DNA of 37,564 nt from a bacterium. GTDB lineage: Bacteria > CLD3 > SB21. Each line of letters opens with the position of its first letter. Positions within the stretch are counted from its first letter, which is position 1. The position numbers and the translations under genes were made by a program. Below, piece after piece: positions 9,818-14,486 of the stretch. Under the pieces are notes generated by a model. It searched no databases and had not been told where the DNA came from. It was given only the letters and a program-made list of their open reading frames with translations. The stretch spans positions 1 to 37,564 of the forward strand of contig JAEUSJ010000010.1 of assembly GCA_016788215.1 (NCBI GenBank), read 5' to 3'.

Positions 9818-11041
9818 CTAAATCAACCCCGACGGTGTCTGTGGTGTGGAAATTAATTTTGTAAAGATGCTCCAGCGTTTTTCAGGGTTTGTCAACGTTC
9901 CCCCATTTTTCTCGATATAATTCTTGACGATATCCTGACCTAAATTATAATTGATCACATAGCTTCGGTATTTCTCTATAAAACGAATACGTTGTTGCGC
10001 GCGATCGCGAGGATATAACCCAAACTGAATCAGCCATTCCACCGCTTCCTCCATGGTCATTTTTCCATCGAGGTAGTCACGTGCGGCTTCATTTCCGGCA
10101 TAACCCAGTTTTCCGACCAACTCATGTATCTGGTAATATTTTGCTGCCGTTTCCGGCGCCATACCGGCGATTGGGAATAGTACTTTGCTCTCAAAATCGA
10201 TCCTTTCTTTCCCCGAAAGGGCCATTTCGATTCCAAAATTGGCCGTACCTTCTGCGATTAGAGACTGCGGGCTGAAAAGCGCATACGCGGAAAACTCAAA
10301 CCATTTGTTTTCTCTTACAAGATGTTTTTCGAGCAGTGAATTATACACATGGTGCCCCGGATAACCTTCATGACAGGCGAGGTCGACCGCGCGGTCGATG
10401 TAGATCGGCAGATCGGTATTGATCTGAATCAGGCTGAAAGCGCCGCCTTTATACCAATTATAACCGCTCCACGCTTTGTTCGTCACATATTCTACGACGA
10501 AATTTTCATTTTCCGGCAGTGAAATATATTTCCTTGTACGTTTTCTGCCCTCTTCAATGGCCGCTTTAAAAACTTGATCCAGTTTTTCTTTTGGAATAAT
10601 AAAAGTATTTTTGAAATCCTCTATACGTTTCGATACGCTGCCTCTGCCGGGCAATTCCATATCCAGTTCTTTCATCGATTTTTCGAAAAAATTCTTATCA
10701 TGTTTTGGCGCAACGGCATCATACAACAATCGCGATTCTTCGTCAAAAGTAAATTTCTTGCCGATCAGCATTTGTATTTTCGTTCGAATGGCCACGAATT
10801 GCTTGGCCAAAAAATTATAACGCAATCTGTCCATTTCCGGTAAATCAGAATTCTCGTATGACTTCAGTTTTTCGGCTAGGTTCAACGACTGTTCTTCCAA
10901 TTTCTTCAAATTATCAGCCCTATCTCCCGATAGTTCCGACGGCTTCCATTCTTCAGGGCCATAATAGGCGTCGACAAAGTCCGCGTCATACAAACCAACC
11001 TGCAAAACTAATTTTACGTACGATTCAGCTATCGTATTCAT
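9818..11041 (-). CDS. DUF885-family putative metallopeptidase
   Basis: A 407-residue protein with the family signature H224-E-G-Y-P-G-H230-H231, an extended zinc-binding motif of the gluzincin type. A second conserved Glu lies in LIAEGTANFG (E264). The rest is mainly helical, as in M3/M32-like or thermolysin-like oligopeptidases. No signal peptide is visible, so it is probably cytosolic. DUF885 proteins are annotated as peptidases largely by motif; the substrate is unknown. The ATG has GGAGAG and AGGAAA just upstream. It lies 82 bp downstream of the MetH-like gene on the same strand and is followed at once by a palindromic hairpin. Confidence 0.85.
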   Translation of the reverse strand: MNTIAESYVKLVLQVGLYDADFVDAYYGPEEWKPSELSGDRADNLKKLEEQSLNLAEKLKSYENSDLPEMDRLRYNFLAKQFVAIRTKIQMLIGKKFTFDEESRLLYDAVAPKHDKNFFEKSMKELDMELPGRGSVSKRIEDFKNTFIIPKEKLDQVFKAAIEEGRKRTRKYISLPENENFVVEYVTNKAWSGYNWYKGGAFSLIQINTDLPIYIDRAVDLACHEGYPGHHVYNSLLEKHLVRENKWFEFSAYALFSPQSLIAEGTANFGIEMALSGKERIDFESKVLFPIAGMAPETAAKYYQIHELVGKLGYAGNEAARDYLDGKMTMEEAVEWLIQFGLYPRDRAQQRIRFIEKYRSYVINYNLGQDIVKNYIEKNGGTLTNPEKRWSIFTKLISTPQTPSGLI

Positions 11042-11123: not shown

Positions 11124-13244
11124 CTATTTTATATTAAAATATTTTGCTTCAGGATGGTGTACTATAATTGCGCTGGTCGACTGTTCCGGAACAAGATGAA
11201 ATTCCTCCGTAAGGGATACACCTATCCGTTCCGGCTCAAGCAGCTCAAACAACTTGGCTTGATCTTCGAGATACGGACACGCGGGATATCCAAAACTGTA
11301 TCGCGATCCGCGGTACTTTTGCTGAAATAATTTTTTGATTTCCTGATTATCATCATGGCTGAAACCAAGTTCGCTCCGTATTTGCCGATGCCAATATTCC
11401 GCCAACGCCTCCGCCGTTTCGACGCTGAGCCCGTGAAAATACAAATAATCGGAATAATTATTCGCTTCAAATAATTTTGCCGAAAATTCCGACGCCTGCA
11501 ATCCGACCGTAACAAGCATACAGCCGAAGACGTCCATCCTGCCGGAATCATTTGACGCAAAAAAATCGGAAATACAATAATAATTACCTTCAGACTGCCT
11601 CGGGAAGGTGAACCGCATCTTCTCCGTTTTCTGATCGTCCTGATACAGTATCAGGTCGTCCCCGTCCGATTGGCAGGGATAATAACCATACACGATTTTC
11701 GGAATGAGCAGATTTTCCGAAACTGAACGGAATTTCCATTGTTCAAATACCGGTTGAACTTTTTCTTTAACAAAGGCTTCGTATTCGGCAACACTCATTT
11801 TTCCGCGCGTAAATTGCCATTGTCCACGGAATAACGCAATCTCATTAATATAAGGGTATATATCGTTGAGAGAGACCGAGTCTATGATCTTGCTTCCAAA
11901 AAATGGCGCTTGCGGAATGTCGACATTTATCGCTACTTTTGAACGTCTTTTCACACGTGGCACTTTTGTTTTATCCAATTTCTGGTTCTCGATGATCCAT
12001 GCTTGAACTTTGTGCAGATGAACATATTCATGTGCAAATGACGACTCGGCGATCATGTCGCTGACAGTACCTTGACCAATCAGGATTGCAAAATGTTCAG
12101 GAAGCAAAGAGGTTATTTGCTGAATCAGACCGGACTGAGCCTCATTCCATAAATCAATCAGCTCCATTCTCGGATACGATTTGTATTTTTTGACTGCTTC
12201 AGTATTCGTATGGTCTGTTTCCTCATCGCTAAATTGTTTCAATTTTGAAAGTTCATTGTTCACTGCATGACGTAATCGCGCGATCAGAATATACTCCCAT
12301 TCTATAAAATGAGCGATGAAATCACGTACTGACCAGTTACCAAATGTCTTCGATTTTTCAAATTCCTCATCGGAAATGTATTCCAACGCTTTATTCCATT
12401 GATGACGAACAATACGGATTCTCTTTATTGTTTCCTGAACGGTCGCAGCAGGCAACGCGAGTACGTCTTCTGCCGTTTTCATTTCGCCCTTGTCGCCGCT
12501 CATCAGGTTTTCCATAACACGTAACCCGGAGAAGGCATCTTCACAATAGAATAACGGCGCATCGTAAACGGCTCTCAGGTCTTCTTCGACATAACGCCGT
12601 GTTAGCGCGGCGCCTCCAAGAAGAACGGGTATCTTCAAGTCACGCTCTGCCATTACTTCCAGATTTTCCTTCATGATCATCGTTGATTTCACAAGCAGGC
12701 CGCTCATCCCTATCGCATCCGCTTTATGCTCTTCTACCGCATGCAACATGACGTCGACAGGACATTTAATACCTAAGTTGATTACTTTATAACCGTTGTT
12801 CGTCAGAATAATATCAACCAGATTTTTTCCAATATCGTGAACATCGCCTTTGACCGTTGCTAAGACCATCGTCCCTTTTTGCGTACTGCCGGCCTTTTCC
12901 ATCAATGGCTCGAGGTAGGCTACGGCAACTTTCATGACCTCCGCCGATTGCAGGACGAAAGGTAACTGCATTTCGCCTTTGCCGAAAAGTTCACCGACAA
13001 CCTTCATGCCGCCCAGAAGAATCGAATTGATTATGTCGAGAGGTTTATATCGTTCCAAAGCCAGTTTCAGATCGTCTTCCAATCCCTGCTTCTCCCCGTC
13101 AATGATACGATTCTTCAGACGGTCCTCGACGGAAGATGAAACCGGAGCCTTTGACTTAGCGGTATCAGACTTCTTGCCGGCATAGTAGTTAATGATCTCT
13201 ATAAGCGGATCATATACCACTTTTTGTTTTTTTTCCTCTTGCAA
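11124..13244 (-). CDS. MetH C-terminal half: B12 cap and binding domains, DinB-like insert, AdoMet activation domain
   Basis: A 706-residue protein in four parts. Residues 45-118 form the methionine-synthase B12 cap. Residues 123-250 form the cobalamin-binding fold with D134-V-H136-D-I-G139 (His is the cobalt ligand), the SGLL loop and GGAAL. Residues about 265-430 form a helical DinB/YfiT-like bundle (WSVRDFIAHF with H312; H405-E-Y-V-H409-L-H411), potential metal ligands. Residues about 433-706 are the MetH activation domain (PFFGSK, RGSRYSFGYPACP with C656, then a C-terminal HP.AKYF). The homocysteine and folate domains are absent. An in-frame stop at 13260-13262 and a TTG start behind AAGGGG show this is the true N-terminus. 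It presumably works with a separate methyltransferase subunit encoded elsewhere. Confidence 0.88.
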   Translation of the reverse strand: MQEEKKQKVVYDPLIEIINYYAGKKSDTAKSKAPVSSSVEDRLKNRIIDGEKQGLEDDLKLALERYKPLDIINSILLGGMKVVGELFGKGEMQLPFVLQSAEVMKVAVAYLEPLMEKAGSTQKGTMVLATVKGDVHDIGKNLVDIILTNNGYKVINLGIKCPVDVMLHAVEEHKADAIGMSGLLVKSTMIMKENLEVMAERDLKIPVLLGGAALTRRYVEEDLRAVYDAPLFYCEDAFSGLRVMENLMSGDKGEMKTAEDVLALPAATVQETIKRIRIVRHQWNKALEYISDEEFEKSKTFGNWSVRDFIAHFIEWEYILIARLRHAVNNELSKLKQFSDEETDHTNTEAVKKYKSYPRMELIDLWNEAQSGLIQQITSLLPEHFAILIGQGTVSDMIAESSFAHEYVHLHKVQAWIIENQKLDKTKVPRVKRRSKVAINVDIPQAPFFGSKIIDSVSLNDIYPYINEIALFRGQWQFTRGKMSVAEYEAFVKEKVQPVFEQWKFRSVSENLLIPKIVYGYYPCQSDGDDLILYQDDQKTEKMRFTFPRQSEGNYYCISDFFASNDSGRMDVFGCMLVTVGLQASEFSAKLFEANNYSDYLYFHGLSVETAEALAEYWHRQIRSELGFSHDDNQEIKKLFQQKYRGSRYSFGYPACPYLEDQAKLFELLEPERIGVSLTEEFHLVPEQSTSAIIVHHPEAKYFNIK

Positions 13245-13276
13245 AGAAGCCCCTTCATGTTAATTTATATAGGAAT

Positions 13277-13311: not shown

Positions 13312-14385
13312 TCAGCGCGTTTCGAGCAGATTTTTGACGGCCGTGATAGATTGCATAAGCTCCAGGCCGCTGATGGGCTCATTCGGCCTGAATTGGCCGT
13401 CTGCCGTAAGGGACATAATTCCCTGCCTGCAAATCGTTATGATCGCATCGAATTGAAAATCGTTTTTATCAACATCAGATAGAACCATTTCCTTTTCGAA
13501 TCGATGATTTGGTGTCTTTTCCCTCAAAAAACGATACAAATAATAGGCAATGTTGCGCCTTTTCATCACATATTCTGGATAAAATTTCCCGTCAGGCAAC
13601 GTCTCTAATGCTCCCATGATAACCGACCGTTTGTAAAAATCTATCATCGGGTTATCGTCGGAAACATCTAGGAAGCGTGTAGCGGTAGTTGCCCCGTCAC
13701 TTAATTCCCTAAATTCGATGACCATAGAATGAGCAAATTGACCTCGAGTAACCGTATTCGATTGGCTTAGATTTTTTAATAGTTCGTTTTCAAACGAATT
13801 TCTCGGATTATGGATATGCAGGATGGCATTGACCTTTTGGCTCAAGGCAACGATTTTTTCATTGCCTGCGGATAAACTGTCTTCCAATAACCTCTCCAAG
13901 TAGTCTGATGCATGCTTATAGTTCTCTAACTGGAAATATAACTGAGCCAGCATCCATGATGCCTTCCAATGATATGGAGCTATTTGAATGGATTTTTCAA
14001 GATTTACCACTGCATCATTCATTTTTTTCTGATAAAACTGAGCCGATCCGGTAAGATAATAAATTTCCGCATCGCGCCGAACGGTGATCGGGATACTGCT
14101 TAAAATAGATTCAACATTCCTATAATCTCCCCGCAAAATCAATATCTCTCCAATTTCACTGTACGCATCAACAAATGTCGAATCAGCTTCAATGGCTTTT
14201 TTAAAGTATTGTATCGCTTTGTCATTATTCCCGTCATTTTTGGTTTTTAGCCCTTTTTGAAAAGAATGGATGGCAATTTCCTGGCGTTCCGCCCGGGTAA
14301 GCCTTGACAAATCGGAACATGAATTCACAAAAAATGAATAAATGAGGAGTGTGAATGTAATTGAAAAAATCAGATTAGGGCGCAT
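13312..14385 (-). CDS. Lipoprotein with TPR repeats and C-terminal S-layer-homology domains
   Basis: A 357-residue protein. I chose the ATG at 14385 because upstream in-frame codons run through the tRNA-Gly gene, and because this start begins with a lipoprotein signal (hydrophobic 5-20, then V20-N-S-C23). Residues about 34-170 hold TPR-type helices (AIQYFKKAIEADSTFVDAYS and a second copy NLEKSIQIAPYHWKASWMLA). Residues about 210-350 hold two or three SLH units (TRGQFA, F-L-D-V, LPDGKFYPE, then L-S-D-V, TADGQFRPNEPIS). SLH domains bind cell-wall or outer-membrane-associated polymers, so this is probably an envelope scaffold. It lies 26 bases downstream of tRNA-Gly on the same strand and shares its promoter. 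Confidence 0.85.
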   Translation of the reverse strand: MRPNLIFSITFTLLIYSFFVNSCSDLSRLTRAERQEIAIHSFQKGLKTKNDGNNDKAIQYFKKAIEADSTFVDAYSEIGEILILRGDYRNVESILSSIPITVRRDAEIYYLTGSAQFYQKKMNDAVVNLEKSIQIAPYHWKASWMLAQLYFQLENYKHASDYLERLLEDSLSAGNEKIVALSQKVNAILHIHNPRNSFENELLKNLSQSNTVTRGQFAHSMVIEFRELSDGATTATRFLDVSDDNPMIDFYKRSVIMGALETLPDGKFYPEYVMKRRNIAYYLYRFLREKTPNHRFEKEMVLSDVDKNDFQFDAIITICRQGIMSLTADGQFRPNEPISGLELMQSITAVKNLLETR

Positions 14386-14411
14386 GCAGGCTCTGAAGAA
14401 TTTTAATAAAA

Positions 14412-14486
<75 letters not shown>

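Follow-up and report, generated by a model that had tools for sequence, protein, structure and literature searches.

Methionine synthase (MetH) is the textbook enzyme in which several domains work on a single cofactor by turns; these movements are believed to be steered by its Fol:Cap and Cob:Act linkers. The window analyzed here, a stretch of 37,564 nucleotides (contig JAEUSJ010000010.1), holds a MetH gene that begins at the cap domain and carries additional sequence between the cobalamin-binding (Cob) and the AdoMet activation (Act) domains. This raises the question of what the additional segment is, where the rest of the enzyme is encoded, and whether the segment has anything to do with the B12 chemistry of its host protein.

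Judged from its domains, the 706-aa ORF (Table 1) is the C-terminal half of a cobalamin-dependent MetH, with cap, B12-binding and AdoMet-activation domains, and all its Pfam matches lie above the curated cut-offs. The NCBIfam metH model matches it in two stretches (E 7.7e-179) with 596.8 bits, below the equivalog cut-off of 1010.85 bits, and for this reason we classify the protein as a split-MetH C-half and not as a whole MetH; such a score is expected, since the ORF is half a protein. A preliminary description of this DNA had placed the start at the B12 cap and excluded a longer form because of an upstream stop codon. Its coordinates are exact and the TAA is in frame. A longer protein with an N-terminal homocysteine (Hcy) and folate (Fol) part is ruled out by this stop, by the TPR gene upstream and by the location of the partner on another contig. 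The family genome G003 has an ATG start at nearly the same place as the TTG of the window.

Table 1. Features of the split MetH locus in the window (positions of the whole stretch; all on the minus strand).
Feature	Position	Strand	Basis
C-half of split MetH with DinB insert	11124..13244	-	ORF reading, Pfam, fusion in 7/7 family genomes
TTG start codon	13242..13244	-	TTG kept in G002, G005, G006
Ribosome site AAGGGG	13250-13255	-	GGAG-type site kept in G002, G005, G006
In-frame TAA stop, 18 bases upstream of TTG	13260-13262	-	sequence reading
Cap domain (B12-binding_2), residues 39-112	12909..13130	-	PF02607 E 2.7e-22
Cobalamin-binding domain, residues 125-241	12522..12872	-	PF02310 E 1.8e-18; Thermus MetH 8ssc alignment
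Inserted DinB/YfiT four-helix bundle (predicted), residues 267-422	11979..12446	-	PF05163/PF12867; AlphaFold2; PDB fold matches
H312, putative metal ligand 1	12309..12311	-	invariant 7/7
H405, putative metal ligand 2	12030..12032	-	invariant 7/7
H409, putative metal ligand 3 (H-xxx-H)	12018..12020	-	invariant 7/7
AdoMet-binding activation (reactivation) domain, residues 444-706	11124..11915	-	PF02965 E 2.9e-47; 8ssc alignment
TPR/SLH-domain putative lipoprotein gene, directly upstream	13312..14472	-	Pfam; 7/7 family loci
tRNA gene upstream of TPR gene	14415..14486	-	Rfam RF00005

Both the cobalamin-binding and the AdoMet reactivation domain were found, as had been read from the letters, by Pfam and by alignment with Thermus MetH (8ssc), which covers residues 7-249 and 425-705 and leaves the middle unmatched; the Met_synt_B12 match spans residues 459-705. 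The Cob domain contains the corrinoid motif D134-V-H136-D137-I-G (residues 134-139) and S187, all invariant in an alignment of the six full-length fusions of the family and, by reading, in the seventh (L017). The activation domain contains RYSFGYPACP (R648-P657, which includes Tyr653), invariant in the six full-length fusions. The motifs DVHDIGKN, LLVKST and RYSFGYPACP are intact and invariant in the family fusions. From these aligned motifs and from established knowledge of the enzyme, we take His136 to be the Co-ligating residue and regard His136, S187 and Tyr653 as counterparts of catalytic residues in other MetH enzymes.

Residues ~267-422 are predicted to form a bundle of the DinB/YfiT fold between the B12 and activation domains, on which Pfam, NCBIfam, AlphaFold2 and Foldseek agree. 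Within the window copy Pfam places DinB at residues 272-357 and DinB_2 at 277-386, and PF12867 and PF05163 match all seven inserts of the family in alignment. AlphaFold2 on the insert alone (four family sequences) gave a pLDDT of 90.4 and a pTM of 0.86. When compared with the PDB by Foldseek, ranks 1-43 (E to about 1.5) were all DinB/YfiT/DfsB/ClbS, mycothiol isomerase/transferase and EgtB proteins, among the fold matches 5cof, 5civ, 6anr, 2nsf and 1rxq. When the insert profile was searched against PDB sequences, the sole match was a sub-threshold, YfiT-like one (2rd9), so that the fold is settled by prediction and Foldseek. Since the Foldseek E-values are modest (best 9e-4, TM about 0.6-0.72) and sequence identity is 9-18% (12-17% for the best structural matches), we regard the fold as secure but not the subfamily. 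The NCBIfam YfiT (bacillithiol-transferase) model matches residues 265-413 weakly (E 4.8e-5, 23.2 bits against a cut-off of 160), below the level at which the insert could be filed as a bacillithiol transferase, and by Foldseek the insert is equally near ClbS/DfsB-type (DUF1706) structures and YfiT. ClbS/DfsB-type members need not be thiol transferases. The four-helix bundle that had been proposed between Cob and Act is thus well borne out, and its size needs correction: the extra segment, put at about 165 residues, measures ~184 with its linkers (~250-434), of which the bundle takes ~156. The full-length AlphaFold2 model is poor outside the Cob domain and the insert because only six sequences were usable (pTM 0.35, Act domain mostly below pLDDT 50), and where it puts the bundle with respect to the corrin is unreliable.

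Three histidines of the bundle (H312, H405 and H409) stand out as a putative metal triad. Their spacing, 93 residues from H312 to H405 and 4 from H405 to H409, equals that of H67/H160/H164 in BstA (PMC5815605). Of the ligands suggested earlier these three hold, and H411 drops out: its site reads H/R/R/E/Q/Q/E in the seven family copies, with histidine solely in the window copy, which places it outside the conserved metal site. H281 is also invariant among the seven inserts, and none of them shares a conserved Cys. In total, 42 of 167 insert columns are invariant. That the triad is preserved while the rest of the domain drifts speaks for metal binding that serves a purpose.

The phylum of the window is represented in our collection by nine genomes, seven in its family, a small uncultured one with four genera, and two in a sister family. 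All seven family genomes carry the same fusion with 66-84% identity (the G006 copy is broken at a contig end, with both pieces present), whereas in the two sister-family genomes MetH is of the usual kind (1232 and 1257 aa). For the wider survey we drew on two sets, one of 60 and one of 386 genomes, spread over the domain with usually one to three representatives of each family. The distance between Cob and Act matches, compared by hand, is 552 bp in the window as against 10-220 bp (median 103) in 56 non-family genomes with both on one ORF, among the matches listed; no insert of comparable size was seen in the phylum to which G276, the closest outside match, belongs. Likewise, a profile search with the insert in 145 genomes gave no other B12 fusion among the matches listed, and 65 pattern matches in viral contigs yielded no confirmed DinB relative. 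The architecture is therefore found throughout the family and, among the matches listed, in none of the other genomes surveyed. Several further DinB candidates are free-standing in some of these same genomes. As a separate observation, a DinB-like match at G083:C1:142402-142689 (L071) lies within a 567-aa ORF and represents a different DinB fusion.

The other half of the enzyme is encoded elsewhere. A gene of ~600-605 aa with the Hcy and folate domains is present in all seven family genomes (82-97% identity); in the genome of the window it sits on another contig (G000:C137) and encodes 603 aa with PF02574 (S-methyl_trans, E 1.6e-81) and PF00809 (Pterin_bind, E 9.8e-46). A separate homocysteine/folate methyltransferase, which the preliminary description had recommended looking for, thus exists. 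The suggestion made there that the insert stands in for a missing partner is ruled out, because this N-half is a conserved gene of its own in 7/7 genomes. A conserved gene of 444-447 aa, which we take to be an S-adenosylhomocysteine (SAH) hydrolase, lies upstream of the N-half in the five genomes inspected. A full-length metH was not found in any of the seven family genomes, that of the window included, and the C-half there has its motif residues intact. As for MetE, PF01717 had no match in 10 genomes, with controls positive in 10 of 14. The genome of the window also encodes a 620-aa homocysteine methyltransferase fusion (G000:C222), its partner presumably a methylenetetrahydrofolate reductase, and a 301-aa homocysteine methyltransferase (C510), neither of them a full-length MetH. 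Besides, a cluster at G000:C366 383-4599 (L089) comprises an MttB-like methyltransferase, a short corrinoid protein, a 304-aa homocysteine methyltransferase and a divergent Met_synt_B12 activation protein. By gene content it resembles a pathway that makes methionine from a methylated amine without folate, and it too includes no full-length MetH; it is absent from the match lists of the six relatives and may be contamination.

Compared with its relatives, the family has its MetH divided at the Fol:Cap linker, and its Cob:Act linker is occupied by the bundle. The nearest MetH that we found, the full-length protein of a KSB1 bacterium (L010, 1166 aa; 66% identity to the N-half and 64% to the C-half), is unsplit and has no insert, unlike the window family. 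Because it shows neither change, both are most simply placed on the branch leading to this family. In another family (f6), genomes G012 and G160 have C-half ORFs of 571-583 aa without the insert (583 aa in G160, G160:C9:33742-35394), and G012 (L018/L090-L091) has a separate N-half. This cut is probably a separate event, since the G012 N-half is only ~46% identical to that of our family, against 66% for KSB1. Thermus MetH (8ssc/8ssd, cap:Cob:Act fragment) has the same domains and the same cofactor-binding and AdoMet motifs, but forms one chain with Hcy and Fol, and its Cob:Act linker has ~20 residues where the window family has an insert-bearing segment of ~184. In Thermus numbering the cut falls on linker II and the insert on linker IV. 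In the full-length Thermus enzyme the mobility of both linkers prevented their modeling, and the Cob:Act linker is disordered (PMC10567725).

Neither component of this arrangement is new by itself. Split MetH has been documented in B. thetaiotaomicron (BT0180/BT0249) and Burkholderia (BPHYT_RS02305/02310), and in three parts in Phaeobacter (PMC7311316, PMC5764234), although at other cut points; the Fol/Cap cut into 2+3 domains found here is shared with G012, which lacks the insert. Fusions of DinB domains with other enzymes are likewise known, as in EgtB and LmbV (PMC5815605). EgtB/OvoA/LmbV-type enzymes combine a DinB bundle with a second catalytic domain, and EgtB-IV was among our Foldseek matches; however, that partner domain is not B12-dependent, whereas here the bundle lies between two domains. 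The insert has the fold of the DinB/YfiT (S-transferase-like) superfamily (BstA/YfiT 1rxq, mycothiol maleylpyruvate isomerase 2nsf, DfsB/ClbS) and the three-His spacing of BstA, and differs in being embedded in a corrinoid enzyme. What is new is a DinB bundle inside MetH, in a narrow lineage. In agreement with the earlier opinion that the arrangement had not been described, no such bundle between the B12 and activation domains appeared in those portions of the literature on DinB and B12 methionine synthase that our search covered.

We tentatively favor a two-protein MetH in which the bundle would contribute metal or thiol chemistry to the reactivation or protection of B12, over a role in docking or spacing. 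From domain content, residues and co-occurrence we infer that the two halves act in trans. The N-half would move a methyl group from methyl-tetrahydrofolate to cob(I)alamin on the C-half and then from methylcobalamin to homocysteine; upon oxidation of the cobalt to Co(II), the activation domain of the C-half would remethylate it with AdoMet after a one-electron reduction. A working two-piece enzyme fits the finding that the two halves of apo human MTR act independently (PMC13376404). The bundle, set in the mobile Cob:Act linker, would be a metal-dependent thiol-binding module, probably for bacillithiol, that acts on cobalamin exposed in, or close to, the reactivation conformation, where it would aid in the reduction, de-ligation or protection of the corrin. 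Alternatively, it might signal the thiol status of the cell to the exchange between Cob and Act. The position in the Cob:Act linker suggests the reactivation step. The thiol is suggested by the bacillithiol genes together with the activity of B. subtilis relatives, where eight of eight superfamily members are metal-dependent bacillithiol transferases with three His as the sole fully conserved residues (PMC5815605). Judged from its genes, the phylum makes bacillithiol: BshA is over the cut-off in 7/7 family genomes and BshC in 6/7, with BshC controls positive in B. subtilis, Thermus and Deinobacterium only. Gating of reactivation and thiol chemistry, both raised in the preliminary description, are compatible with the triad and with these genes. 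The two class relatives without the insert match BshA and BshC too, so that bacillithiol does not explain why the insert is present. The more specific proposal, in which bacillithiol at the DinB metal site serves the corrin during reactivation as a low-molecular-weight-thiol step of MetH's own, we consider unlikely as it stands; if true, it would give MetH an internal equivalent of the cobalamin chaperones of animals, which use glutathione. In either form, the family offers a natural experiment on linker constraint, with one linker cut and the other filled by a folded domain that keeps a putative metal triad. It does so in an organism that, as far as tested, has no other methionine synthase, and in which the thiol status of the cell may be tied to the reactivation of B12.

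A docking or spacing function, in which the bundle holds the free N-half or a reductase or limits domain swinging and any metal is structural, is possible but on the unlikely side. The cut and the insert co-occur in 7/7 family genomes, they fall on the two linkers that are mobile in Thermus MetH (PMC10567725), and in human MTR the C-half is a known docking site for partner proteins (PMC13376404). The insert is also the fastest-evolving domain, with a mean pairwise identity in the family of 52% against 87% for the Cob (B12) region and 77% for Act, and such drift fits a scaffold. Yet the bundle is not needed after a cut, because the C-halves of G012, with the same cut, and of G160 do without it, and a pure spacer would have no use for the exact triad with its spacing.

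A bundle that works on its own as a thiol transferase or hydrolase, for example for electrophile detoxification, and is uncoupled from B12 seems distinctly improbable to us. The DinB fold is complete with the triad and self-contained, and many DinB proteins are free-standing; but a passenger would be oddly placed inside a moving enzyme and not at its end, at the same site in four genera, when some of these genomes already have the free-standing relatives mentioned above.

A nearly neutral insertion, tolerated in a permissive linker and now decaying, would suit the disorder of that linker and the variability of the insert, the highest of any domain, but is very hard to reconcile with its selection. 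Within the genus, dN/dS is 0.10-0.14 for the insert, 0.04-0.06 for the B12 region and 0.06-0.09 for Act, rough figures since synonymous sites are near saturation in the insert. The insert is thus under purifying selection, though with a higher dN/dS than the flanking domains, and its invariant columns include the three ligands. These values and its location at the same place, intact, in 7/7 family genomes identify it as real protein-coding sequence. An assembly or binning artefact, which a 621-contig assembly with 8.75% contamination might invite, is refuted by the same junctions in six other, independent assemblies (e.g. JAEUSK010000069.1, JAGQUY010000080.1, JABWBZ010000225.1).

Regarding the surroundings of the gene, Rfam gave only tRNAs and no riboswitch upstream of the C-half. 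The TPR/SLH gene (the window and L007, L079, L080, L081, L082 and L083) shows ~27-32% identity between most genera. A tRNA precedes it in four loci (the window, G002, G004 and G005). The listed GTG start of the TPR ORF is wrong because it overlaps the tRNA gene, and the true start is probably the Met near 14385. Genes downstream of the C-half vary among the family loci. In the window, positions 9818-11041 (minus strand) encode a 407-aa protein without Pfam or NCBIfam match, which also adjoins metH in G001, G002 and G004 with 60-95% identity.
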